This document shows positions 7,011 through 11,279 of a stretch of 64,000 nt of DNA, piece after piece. The translations under genes were made by a program, and so were the position numbers. Source of the stretch: an uncultured bacterium (GTDB lineage Bacteria > Cyanobacteriota > Vampirovibrionia > Gastranaerophilales > Gastranaerophilaceae); assembly GCA_947073645.1 (NCBI GenBank), contig CAMTMK010000010.1, positions 1 through 64,000 on the forward strand. The letters run 5' to 3'. Numbering within the stretch: the stretch's first letter is position 1; each line of letters starts with the position of its first letter. The notes beneath the pieces are model-generated. The model worked only from the letters and a program-made list of their open reading frames with translations. It made no database searches and had not been told where the DNA came from.

Positions 7011-7097
7011 GCTCGCTCACGTTTAACGGGTCTGCGGTTGTTATCTGCAATGGCTTTGCCATTTTGCTAACAAGCCTCGCCCTCAGCTCGCTCGCGC
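7011..7097. repeat. Composite palindromic repeat, copy A (intergenic, abutting nrdJ stop)
   Basis: GCTCGCTCACGTTTAACGGGTCT left flank, TTGTTA..GCAATGGC-TTT-GCCATTTTGC-TAACAA palindrome, GCCCTCAGCTCGC right flank; shares flanks with 7221..7286. Confidence 0.6.
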
Positions 7098-9121
7098 TAT
7101 GAACAACCGGAGTATCCGCATTTCAAACAGATGAAACATCCTTCTGCCATCTGAATTTCGTTTCCGCATTCAGGACATTTTACTGTTTTAATCTCGCCTG
7201 TCGGGTTGTATTCTGCTTGGTGGCTCGCGTTAAACGGGTCTTCAGATGTCGCCTTCGCGCCATCTTGCGCCCTCTGCTCGCCATCCGCTTCAACCTTTTC
7301 TTCTTCTTTTTTCTTATCCAAGTTCATAGGTTGGAATTGACGTGAGTTGTTTCTGTAAACAGTTATACCTTTAAGGTCATTTTCAAATGCTAATACATAA
7401 GCTTCTTCGATATCTTTACGAGTTGCATGTTCTTCAAAGTTTACTGTTTTTGATACAGCATTGTCTGTGTGAAGCTGGAATGCAGCCTGCATTTTTACGT
7501 GCCAGTATGGTGAAACGTCGTGTGCAGTTGTAAAGATTTTTTTAACTTCTTCAGACACACCGTCAACATGAGCTACAGAACCTGTTTTAGCAATTTTTGA
7601 CATCAATTCTTCTGAATAGAAGCCGTGTTCAACTGCATAGTCTTTGAAAATCGGGTTAACTTCAAACATTTCAGTTCCGTCCATAATCAATCTTGAGAAT
7701 ACAAGACCGAATAGAGGTTCAACACCGCCTGAAGCAGAAGCTATCATTGAAATTGTACCTGTTGGAGCGATACAAGTTGTTGTAGCGTTTCTGATACCGA
7801 ATTTTTCGATTTGCGCATCAAGCTCTTTCCATTGCTCATCAGAAATTTTACCTGCTGATTTACCTTTGTATTTGTTATATAAGAAGTTTTGACCGTCGTA
7901 AACGCTTCCTTTAAAGTTGTTAAATTTACCTCTTTCTTTAGAAAGTTCAATAGATTCGCATTTTGATTCGTAATCAATGAATTCCATAACTTCAGAAGCT
8001 AATTGAGTACCTTCTTTTGAAGCATAAGAGATGCCCATTTTCATAAGCATATCAGCCCAGCCCATTACGCCTAAACCGATTTTTCTGTTGTTTTGAACCA
8101 TTTCAGAGATTTGGGGAAGCGGATAATTATTAACTGCAATAACGTTATCCAAGAAACGGATAGCAGTTCTTGTAGTTTCAGCCAATAAATCCCAATTGAT
8201 AGAACCGTTTTCTACCATTCTGCCAAGGTTGATTGAACCTAAGTTACAAGCTTCATAAGAAAGCAATGGAACTTCACCGCAAGGGTTAGTAGATTCAATA
8301 GCACCAACAAGCGGAGTTGGGTTATCTGCGTTCATTTTGTCAATAAACACAATACCCGGTTCACCAGTTCTCCAAGCGCCGTCAACTATTAAATCGAATA
8401 CTTTTTTCGCATCCATTGTACCTGCAACTTCGCCTGTATGAGGTGCAATAAGTTCATAATCAGTACCGTTTTTAACAGCTTCCATAAATTTGTCTGTCAA
8501 AGCAACGGAAATATTAAAGTTGTTTAATTTAGAAGTATCGTTTTTGCAGTTGATGAAGTCTAAAATATCAGGGTGGTCTACTCTTAAGATACCCATATTA
8601 GCACCGCGTCTTGTACCGCCTTGTTTAACAGCCTCAGTTGCTGCGTTAAATACTTCCATAAATGAAACAGGACCTGATGAAACGCCCATAGTTGAGCGGA
8701 CAACACTATTTTTTGGTCTTAAATTAGAGAATGAAAAACCTGTACCACCGCCTGATTTGTGAATAAGTGCAGTGTTTTTTACTGTTTCAAAGATACCTTC
8801 CAAACTGTCTTCAACCGGAAGAACGAAGCAAGCTGCCAATTGTCCTAATTCTCTGCCTGCGTTCATCAATGTTGGTGAGTTTGGCATAAAATATCTGTTT
8901 GTAATAGCTTTATAAAATCTGTCAGATAATTTATCAACATCTGACTGTGATTTCCCAAATTTTAAATCGCCTGCTGCGATAGTATCCGCTACACGTCTGA
9001 ACATGTCAGCTGGAGTTTCGGTACAATTTCCGTCTTTATCTCTTTTTAAATACCTCTTTTCAAGAACTTTCACTGCGTTTTCAGAAAGTTCAAGTTTTTC
9101 AATACATGTTGTATCAGTCAC
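7097..9121 (-). CDS. nrdJ: Adenosylcobalamin-dependent (class II) ribonucleoside-diphosphate reductase
   Basis: 674 aa; NPCGEVPLLSYEACNLGSINLGR, ATTTCIAPTGTISMIA, C-terminal CPECGNEIQMAEGCFICLKCGYSGCS; GTG start. Confidence 0.95.
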   Translation of the reverse strand: MTDTTCIEKLELSENAVKVLEKRYLKRDKDGNCTETPADMFRRVADTIAAGDLKFGKSQSDVDKLSDRFYKAITNRYFMPNSPTLMNAGRELGQLAACFVLPVEDSLEGIFETVKNTALIHKSGGGTGFSFSNLRPKNSVVRSTMGVSSGPVSFMEVFNAATEAVKQGGTRRGANMGILRVDHPDILDFINCKNDTSKLNNFNISVALTDKFMEAVKNGTDYELIAPHTGEVAGTMDAKKVFDLIVDGAWRTGEPGIVFIDKMNADNPTPLVGAIESTNPCGEVPLLSYEACNLGSINLGRMVENGSINWDLLAETTRTAIRFLDNVIAVNNYPLPQISEMVQNNRKIGLGVMGWADMLMKMGISYASKEGTQLASEVMEFIDYESKCESIELSKERGKFNNFKGSVYDGQNFLYNKYKGKSAGKISDEQWKELDAQIEKFGIRNATTTCIAPTGTISMIASASGGVEPLFGLVFSRLIMDGTEMFEVNPIFKDYAVEHGFYSEELMSKIAKTGSVAHVDGVSEEVKKIFTTAHDVSPYWHVKMQAAFQLHTDNAVSKTVNFEEHATRKDIEEAYVLAFENDLKGITVYRNNSRQFQPMNLDKKKEEEKVEADGEQRAQDGAKATSEDPFNASHQAEYNPTGEIKTVKCPECGNEIQMAEGCFICLKCGYSGCS
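7221..7286. repeat. Composite palindromic repeat, copy B, in frame within nrdJ
   Basis: GGCTCGCGTTAAACGGGTCT + AGATGtcGC-cttc-GCgcCATCT + GCGCCCTCTGCTCGCC; encodes DGEQRAQDGAKATSEDPFNASHQ. Confidence 0.6.
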
Positions 9122-9197: not shown

Positions 9198-9226
9198 TTT
9201 ACAAAACTTACTAATTTTGTTATAAT
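9198..9226 (+). promoter_or_regulatory. Sigma70-type promoter for the pilin-like gene
   Basis: TTTACA-N17-TATAAT, followed by GCGGAGGT RBS and ATG at 9249. Confidence 0.7.
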
Positions 9227-9248
9227 TAAAAGCGGAGGTAAATAAATT

Positions 9249-9943
9249 ATGAAAAGTTTGAACATTAATCGCCTTGGGGGGGGGGCACTGAACCGCATTT
9301 AGCTTTCAATCTCGCAGAAATTTTAATTACCTTAGGCGTACTCGGTGTTGTCGCAGCATTAACGATGCCGATGTTGATTGCAAATTACCAGAAAAAGCAA
9401 ACTGTTGAGTCATTAAAACAGGCATATAGTCTTTTACAACACGCATACGAATTCGCTCAACAGGATTATGGAAGTATAGAATATTGGAATTATAAAAACA
9501 TGTCCAATGTTGCAATTAGAGATACGTTTTTTTTGCCGTATTTTAAATCTGCATCAGTACCTAAGTCTACTTATAAATATAATACTCCTAATTGGCCGAT
9601 TTGGTCTGATGGAATGAAAAATGGCTATATATTTCCCGTCGATGCTGTTAGTTCTTGTTTACAGACACCTCAAAATTATTTGTATTGTTTTAGAAATTTG
9701 TACAACGGTCATGTAATTATTAATATTGATATTAATGGAATACAAAAAGGACCAAATCGCGTGGCGAGAGATATATTTATGGTCGGATTTAATTCAGATT
9801 ATGGTAATCGAATAGAATTTGAAGGCATAGTAACATATCAACATTGCAACAAAACTAGCGGTAATGGCGGCGCTTGCGGGTTGAAAATTCAACGTGACGG
9901 CTGGCGGATTAAAGATGATTATCCTTGGAGATCGGGGAGGTAA
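9249..9943 (+). pseudogene. Type IV pilin-like/prepilin-like protein, frameshifted at a G10 tract (phase-OFF gene, pseudogene or sequencing error)
   Basis: ATG AAA AGT TTG AAC ATT AAT CGC CTT (G)10 ... runs to TAG at ~9300; a shift to 8 or 11 G joins it to GTEPHLAFNLAEILITLGVLGVVAALTMPM (prepilin N-terminus) and the 9365..9943 ORF. Confidence 0.8.
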
Positions 9944-10028: not shown

Positions 10029-11279
10029 TTGAAACATTCAAAACTTACAGCCCTGATATTTATAGCGTTGGTTTTAGGCGTTATAGTTGGACATTTTGCC
10101 CCCGATTTTGCGGTTAAAATGAAACCTTTTGCGGTCATTTTTCTGCGAATGGTAAAGATGATTATCGCTCCATTGTTGTTCGCGACTCTGGTTGTCGGCA
10201 TTGCAGGTCATGGAGATGCTAAAAGATTAGGGAAAATCGGGCTTAAAACAGTTATTTATTTTGAAATCGTTACGACTTTAGCTCTTGTAATCGGGCTTAC
10301 AATGGCAAATATTTTTAAACCGGGTGTAGGATTTGTTACTGGCACTACTCCGCATGCACTGCATATGCAAGAAGCTGGTCTGATGGCAGGTGCGCAGGCA
10401 CATACTTCAATCAGTGAAATGGTTACGAGTATTTTTCCGACAAGTATAGTTGATGCTATGGCACAGGGAAATTTATTGCAAATCGTAGTGTTTTCAATAT
10501 TTTTTGCGTTAGCAATTATTGCTGTAGGCAAAAAGGCACAGCCTGTTATTGATATTTTAAATTCGGTATCGCAGATTATGTTTAAATTTACCGAATACGT
10601 AATGTATTTTGCACCTTTAGGAATTTTTGGTGCAATCGCATCTACAATCGGTGCTAACGGCTTATCTGTGTTAAAAAGTTATTTCAAGATAATTGGAGCA
10701 TTATATATTGCCTTGGCTGTATTTGTATTTCTGGTTTTGATTATTGCATGCAAAATTGTAAAAATTTCATTTAGAAGCCTTTTAAGAGCTTTGCAAGAAC
10801 CAGCTTTACTTGCATTTACGACAGCTAGTTCAGAGGCAGCATTTCCAAAAGCTATGGATATTATGGAGCGTTTTGGAGTTCCGAAAAATATAGTAAGTTT
10901 TGTTATGCCGACGGGTTATACGTTCAATCTGGACGGAAGCACATTGTATCTTGCAATGGCAGTTATATTTTCATCACAGATTGTCGGGATAAATCTTGAC
11001 TTAAATCAGCAATTAATTATAATGTTGGCATTGATGCTTACAAGTAAAGGTGTTGCGGGAGTTCCGAGAGTGTCTTTGATTGTATTGGCAGGAACTTTGG
11101 CAAGCTTTAATATTCCAATCCTCGGGGTTGCAATACTTTTAGGTATTGACCAAATCCTTGATATGGGAAGGACAACGGTAAATTTAATCGGAAATTGCGT
11201 TGCAACAGTTGTAATTGCACGTTGGGAACGAGTTTTTGATTATGATAAAATGAAAGAATTTGTAAATAAAGAGGTATAG
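10029..11279 (+). CDS. Dicarboxylate/amino acid:cation symporter (DAACS family)
   Basis: 416 aa; TTG start; TASSEAAFPKAMD, GYTFNLDGSTLY, GVAGVPR motifs. Confidence 0.92.
   Translation: MKHSKLTALIFIALVLGVIVGHFAPDFAVKMKPFAVIFLRMVKMIIAPLLFATLVVGIAGHGDAKRLGKIGLKTVIYFEIVTTLALVIGLTMANIFKPGVGFVTGTTPHALHMQEAGLMAGAQAHTSISEMVTSIFPTSIVDAMAQGNLLQIVVFSIFFALAIIAVGKKAQPVIDILNSVSQIMFKFTEYVMYFAPLGIFGAIASTIGANGLSVLKSYFKIIGALYIALAVFVFLVLIIACKIVKISFRSLLRALQEPALLAFTTASSEAAFPKAMDIMERFGVPKNIVSFVMPTGYTFNLDGSTLYLAMAVIFSSQIVGINLDLNQQLIIMLALMLTSKGVAGVPRVSLIVLAGTLASFNIPILGVAILLGIDQILDMGRTTVNLIGNCVATVVIARWERVFDYDKMKEFVNKEV

Follow-up and report, generated by a model that had tools for sequence, protein, structure and literature searches.

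A candidate default-OFF poly-G phase switch in a prepilin-like leader of a Gastranaerophilales genome, one of dozens of similar loci

The prepilin-like gene and its G10 tract

The window, by which we mean the whole 64-kb stretch of DNA analysed, contains a prepilin-like gene, standing by itself, whose leader is interrupted by ten consecutive Gs at 9276-9285, with CTT on the 5′ side and CACTGAACC on the 3′ side. The gene is flanked by a divergent ORF at 7097-9121 (-) and by an ORF at 10029-11279, which from their translations read as ribonucleotide-reductase-like and dicarboxylate-symporter-like, respectively. The tract is the only G/C run of at least 9 in the window, where 0.02 would be expected. 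The features of the locus, read from the sequence unless another basis is given, are as follows.

9198..9226 (+): promoter-like TTTACA-N17-TATAAT with a TG before the -10; 11/12 consensus matches, by consensus only
9233..9238 (+): ribosome-binding site CGGAGG; a GGAG 5′ of the leader ATG is common to most other tract genes
9249..9275 (+): start codon and opening residues of the leader (MKSLNINRL)
9266..9268 (+): TAA closing the pilin frame 5′ of the tract at length 10
9276..9285 (+): G10 tract; OFF at 10, in frame at 11 or 8
9300..9302 (+): TAG shortly 3′ of the tract when read at length 10; the genus conserves a stop at this place
9302..9943 (+): intact prepilin-type ORF P0001, AFNLAEILITLG..., 213 aa plus stop; ORF, homologue, profile and model evidence

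From the ATG at 9249, the frame of the assembled, length-10 tract closes at the TAG, and by frame arithmetic the same ATG is joined to the prepilin frame with 11 or 8 Gs. The pilin frame is open to 9943 except for the TAA 5′ of the tract, and thus at length 10 there is no simple alternative start. All of this had been claimed in the preliminary description and is borne out on rereading, as are its promoter, here with an extended -10 TG, and its ribosome-binding site (GGAGG at 9234-9238). It had given the pilin ORF as 9365..9943, of which the end is correct but the true start lies upstream, the frame being 9302-9943 and the prepilin motif FNLAEILITLG beginning at 9305. A consensus scan of the window returned 7 promoter-like sites where chance alone would give 5.0; it is only the quality of the promoter-like site at 9198-9226, and not the number of sites, that is notable.

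The N terminus of P0001 fits the prepilin motif (G/A)|FxxxE as A|FNLAEILITLGVLGVVAALTMP, followed by a hydrophobic helix, and F2, L4 and E6 are kept in its relatives. A profile built from P0001 and 35 relatives has matches, over the first helix, to GspG and to type IV pilins of solved structure. P0001 itself matched 0 Pfam families, PF07963 (N_methyl) included; in the set of 36, PF07963 was matched by 5, and 13 relatives matched DUF6613. The predicted model (pLDDT 79.9) has a helix at 4-56 and then a few strands, and a structural search of the PDB with it gave no match at E<=0.001. The genome encodes a prepilin peptidase (PF06750, C3:44777-45028, 122 bits). We therefore call P0001 pilin-like, a protein that could form a pilus, a pseudopilus or another surface protein. 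It has many paralogues, with a common N terminus and a variable C-terminal part. The best relative within the genus is only 46% identical, and a scan of contigs for a one-to-one orthologue suited to allele comparison yielded other Gastranaerophilales loci instead.

Tracts across the genome, genus and order

The assembly from which the window comes (1.71 Mb, 37 contigs, 99.8% complete) contains 68 G/C runs of at least 8, 64 of them at least 9. The surroundings of all 68 were taken and each was oriented by the prepilin motif. The preliminary description had proposed a survey of the prepilin genes of this genome for further tracts, and the outcome is that 53 of the 68 runs lie in prepilin-like leaders (read in the sense of the gene, 31 are poly-G and 22 poly-C). 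In these 53, the start codon is 17-48 bases 5′ of the run, mostly with a clear ribosome-binding site, and the prepilin motif, typically FTLAEVLITLG, follows on the 3′ side. Tract lengths span 8-12. As assembled, 9 leaders are in frame and 44 are out, of which 35 are one base short, and the ORFs 3′ of the tracts are intact in nearly all, the two exceptions being L041 and L082. Of the tracts outside these 53, one (L048) precedes a divergent prepilin motif.

About a dozen tracts sit in other genes, including a GT-D glycosyltransferase (PF08759), a TupA-like ATP-grasp protein (PF14305) and a hexapeptide acetyltransferase (PF00132). Glycosyltransferase and acetyltransferase genes are also found in known phasomes. 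By assignments made by eye, the ON state is commoner in the non-pilin tract genes than in the pilins (7/12 vs 9/53, p=0.006). The ATP-grasp, glycosyltransferase and acetyltransferase tracts (L070, L079 and L080, respectively) are all in frame as assembled. Seven further tracts (L083, L085, L086, L104, L066, L043 and L078) are in long genes of no clear family; a Pfam search gave no match for L086 and L104.

Such tracts recur in the genus; the named relatives of P0001 come mostly from metagenome assemblies (Candidatus Gastranaerophilales). Runs of at least 9 number 26-176 in 29 of 35 genus genomes and 0-11 in the remaining six; 15 genomes from other families of the order have 0-7. The ordered pattern of ribosome-binding site, poly-G and FTLAE was found in 24/35 genus genomes, and its poly-C counterpart in 20/35, with zero matches in the reversed controls for either. 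In tiled stretches of one 5-contig genome (G046), 24 pilin ORFs have a run within 200 bases upstream and 4 do not. Another genome (G023) is rich in pilin relatives and has only four runs, and hence the protein family does not depend on them. With about 60 runs in the genome of the window and up to 176 in a sister species, the sequences point to a very large set of default-off switches of putative surface proteins.

Frame, strand and selection

For comparison, 211 pilin leaders were taken from other species. Tract length is exactly 10 in 195 of them and the in-frame length is 11 (mod 3) in 199; as assembled, 190 are one base short, 12 are two short and 9 are in frame. Among poly-G genes, the lengths of the leader and post-tract parts, mod 3, fall into three arrangements, (1,0) in 74 genes, (0,1) in 41 and (2,2) in 28, with only 5 genes otherwise, and all three give the same sum. 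A frame sum that is held while its parts vary is predicted neither by decay nor by a silent store of genes. Moreover, a stop lies within 3 codons 3′ of the tract in the length-10 frame of 136/139 distinct poly-G leaders, as against 28/139 in the length-9 frame and 0 in the ON frame, counts that include related genes of one lineage and so are not independent events. Counting against a switch, fewer than one third of the leaders are ON, both here (9/53) and in other species (9/211), and thus the states seen in the assemblies have not been sampled at random. Rather than one random position of a switch, G10 appears to be the set point of a default-OFF design.

In our judgement, the G10 tract is probably a slipped-strand phase switch in a prepilin-like leader, OFF by default and one of dozens of such loci. 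With ten Gs, the ribosome would meet a stop just 3′ of the tract and the pilin would not be made. Slippage during replication that adds one G or removes two would join the leader to the pilin frame, and prepilin peptidase would then cleave the leader off, so that the length of the tract would decide production of the mature protein but leave its sequence unchanged. With the same layout at dozens of loci, each cell would express a changing small subset. Three points are inferred: lengths change within a lineage, G10 is what most members of a population carry, and the pilins are at the surface and benefit from rare, variable expression. Three features of a contingency locus are found here: a tract of at least 9 in the 5′ part of the ORF, a length that sets the frame, and an excess in surface-related genes. 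The preliminary description had proposed a poly-G switch for this one pilin-like gene; the proposal is well supported, and on a larger scale, while switching at any one locus is a prediction from sequence.

The main competitor, which we regard as unlikely, is programmed frameshifting, in which a fixed G10 or C10 is itself functional, the pilin being produced by RNA-polymerase slippage or -1 ribosomal frameshifting and the nearby stop ending the unshifted product. The near-invariance of the length, the frame that is nearly always one base short, the conserved stop in frame 0 after a slippery run, and genes that are intact and under purifying selection would all be accommodated, and the slippery run with a nearby stop in the unshifted frame recalls dnaX-type frameshifting. 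However, poly-G and poly-C genes have the same length and offset despite different RNA and codons, which dnaX-type sites do not lead one to expect, and own-genome pilin tracts range from 8 to 12, with G11 alleles in existence. Nor was the downstream structure of a dnaX-type site found: over 70 nt 3′ of the tract in 53 genes of this genome, the mean z was -0.17 against shuffles, with 3 genes below -2. That dozens of pilin-like genes per genome, more than 100 in some species, would be expressed only through slippage at a fixed G10/C10 frameshift site seems improbable.

The main reason for preferring replication slippage comes from the orientation of the runs. The strand that carries the Gs is constant along contigs whatever the direction of the gene (38/39 neighbouring pairs in this genome), and both orientations were not seen within any one fetched stretch. 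GC skew is positive on the G-run strand in 132/154 tracts, and on contig 2 of G046 the G-run strand and the sign of the skew flip together, between 210 and 305 kb. The run is thus fixed by strand, such that genes pointing one way carry poly-G and those pointing the opposite way poly-C; orientation tracks replication and not the gene. It is therefore a property of the DNA, not of the mRNA or the ribosome, and this counts against programmed frameshifting. The sole strand change along a contig of the window's genome (G000) is on C4, at 65.7-100.6 kb, possibly a replication origin or terminus, or an assembly join.

Two accessory ideas were discarded. Sequestration of the ribosome-binding site by AGCTCC, which is frequent after the tract and complementary to GGAGCT, would be expected to leave covariation, and none was seen (4.507 vs 4.466 shuffled). 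Absence of mismatch repair as the cause of the tracts is ruled out by the presence of MutS and MutL in the genus; in one genome, G008, no MutL match exceeded the cut-off.

Strict orientation relative to replication is also what a silent pilin store might show, if OFF genes were gene-conversion donors and the oriented G-run a starter of recombination, with frame irrelevant. The G4 of Neisseria pilE is such a starter, and the many paralogues with a common N terminus and a variable C-terminal part would suit donors. Yet nearly every gene examined has its own ribosome-binding site and ATG, the window gene has its own putative promoter, and silent donors would not need a frame sum that is conserved though leader lengths vary. 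We consider this reading quite improbable.

An error of sequencing or assembly, with a true length of 11 and genes that are simply on, is less plausible again. Homopolymers are error-prone, and related genomes come mostly from metagenomes. Against this, the stop is conserved far above its level in the length-9 frame precisely where length 10 puts it, a length of exactly 10 puts several non-pilin genes in frame, and the same length recurs in many assemblies made independently; errors that consistently dropped one G, and did so only in pilins, are not credible.

OFF genes are intact and evolve under purifying selection. Among OFF/OFF pairs, whether paralogous or homologous, 12 had usable dS and give a median dN/dS of 0.18, with dS near saturation in most pairs; the two pairs with dS <1 give 0.37 and 0.18. 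It follows that the proteins are used at least sometimes. The preliminary description had contrasted the window gene with an old pseudogene, as these values and the intact ORFs confirm, and had set a uniform G10 accompanied by decay against a switch; G10 is indeed near-uniform in other species, but the genes are not decayed. An old pseudogene with a chance homopolymer, which would explain only the out-of-frame assembly, is refuted: the layout recurs in dozens of genes and its frame relation is conserved, the ORFs are intact, and dN/dS in OFF pairs is about 0.18.

One-G differences are found between close paralogues, as distinct from alleles of one locus. In G047, two near-identical leaders (97% over 200 bp) have G11, in frame, and G10, out of frame, and at L163 neighbouring copies have G10, G10 and G11.

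Known systems and minor features of the leaders

The best-known cases of slipped-strand phase variation come from a small number of host-adapted pathogens. In Neisseria, the pilC tract sits in the signal-peptide region, and opa is a multigene surface family in which each member is switched independently by a pentamer repeat in the cleaved leader. The putative switch described here resembles pilC1/pilC2, phase-variable genes with poly-G/C tracts of G9-20 (PMC5953494), in having such a tract within the coding region of a pilus gene, ON or OFF by frame. It differs in that pilC comprises two genes per genome with a wide range of tract lengths, whereas here there are dozens of pilin-like genes and the length is nearly always 10, with a conserved stop at that length and a G-run locked to the replication strand. 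Meningococcus and gonococcus have about 15-19 poly-G tracts per genome and, in Neisseria, the opa repeats (PMC5953494). The likeness to opa lies in the multigene family and the repeat in the leader; the unit there is a pentamer at about 2-12 loci, and here a G at 50 or more.

Like the Campylobacter phasome (reviewed in PMC8355987), the tracts are poly-G/C of 9-11 in surface-modifying ORFs of a low-GC genome. In C. jejuni, short runs tend to grow, runs of at least 11 tend to shrink and most are held at 9-10 (PMC8355987), a set point flanked by a bias towards insertion at G8 and towards deletion from G11 on. Campylobacter strains have 5-81 phase-variable genes, with tract lengths split between 9 (53%) and 10 (26%) (PMC6321876, PhasomeIt); in the present genus one pilin-like family dominates and is OFF at 10. 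C. jejuni has no functional mismatch repair (PMC8355987), whereas here up to 176 tracts occur with MutS and MutL present, and slippage may therefore be slower than in C. jejuni.

That length 10 is far more uniform than tract lengths in Campylobacter counts against a switch. With a set point of 10, a gene in frame at 11 would be off in most cells and would quickly return to off, while one in frame at 9 could remain on; a layout that is OFF at 10 and ON at 11 is what would then result if selection favoured expressing many alternative pilins rarely and transiently. A consensus taken over a mixed population would likewise make the lengths look more uniformly 10. Both arguments are inferences.

In a search confined to open-access literature, no report was found for Gastranaerophilales with phase variation or phase-variable genes. 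For Melainabacteria, the papers returned, as their titles describe them, were only a flagellin survey under phase variation and unrelated work under homopolymer. On sequence evidence, the poly-G set of this uncultured, Cyanobacteria-related gut lineage appears larger than the published sets of Campylobacter and Neisseria, and it suggests that a common gut commensal hedges its bets at the cell surface. It offers more than 200 natural tracts for studying how length, strand and mismatch repair set slippage. From a practical standpoint, gene callers will miss or truncate many such tract-bearing proteins.

Two minor features of the leaders deserve mention. Small palindromic repeats, AAGCGTAGCCGCTT and GGTGCTACGCACGTAGCC, are inserted in frame at L036, L044, L058 and L103 in this genome and at L108, L121 and L129 in other species; they are placed between the tract and FTLAE or inside the leader, add up to dozens of residues, and recall the Rickettsia palindromic elements. 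Here they sit in a segment that cleavage would remove. At L106, L113, L114, L116 and L125, and at G046 loci that include L239 and L245, a second in-frame start lies between the tract and the pilin. It consists of a TTTACA-N17-TATAAT-like site followed directly by GTGATATGAAACATCAC, with a palindrome over the ATG, and is apparently leaderless; some pilins may thus also be made without the tract.
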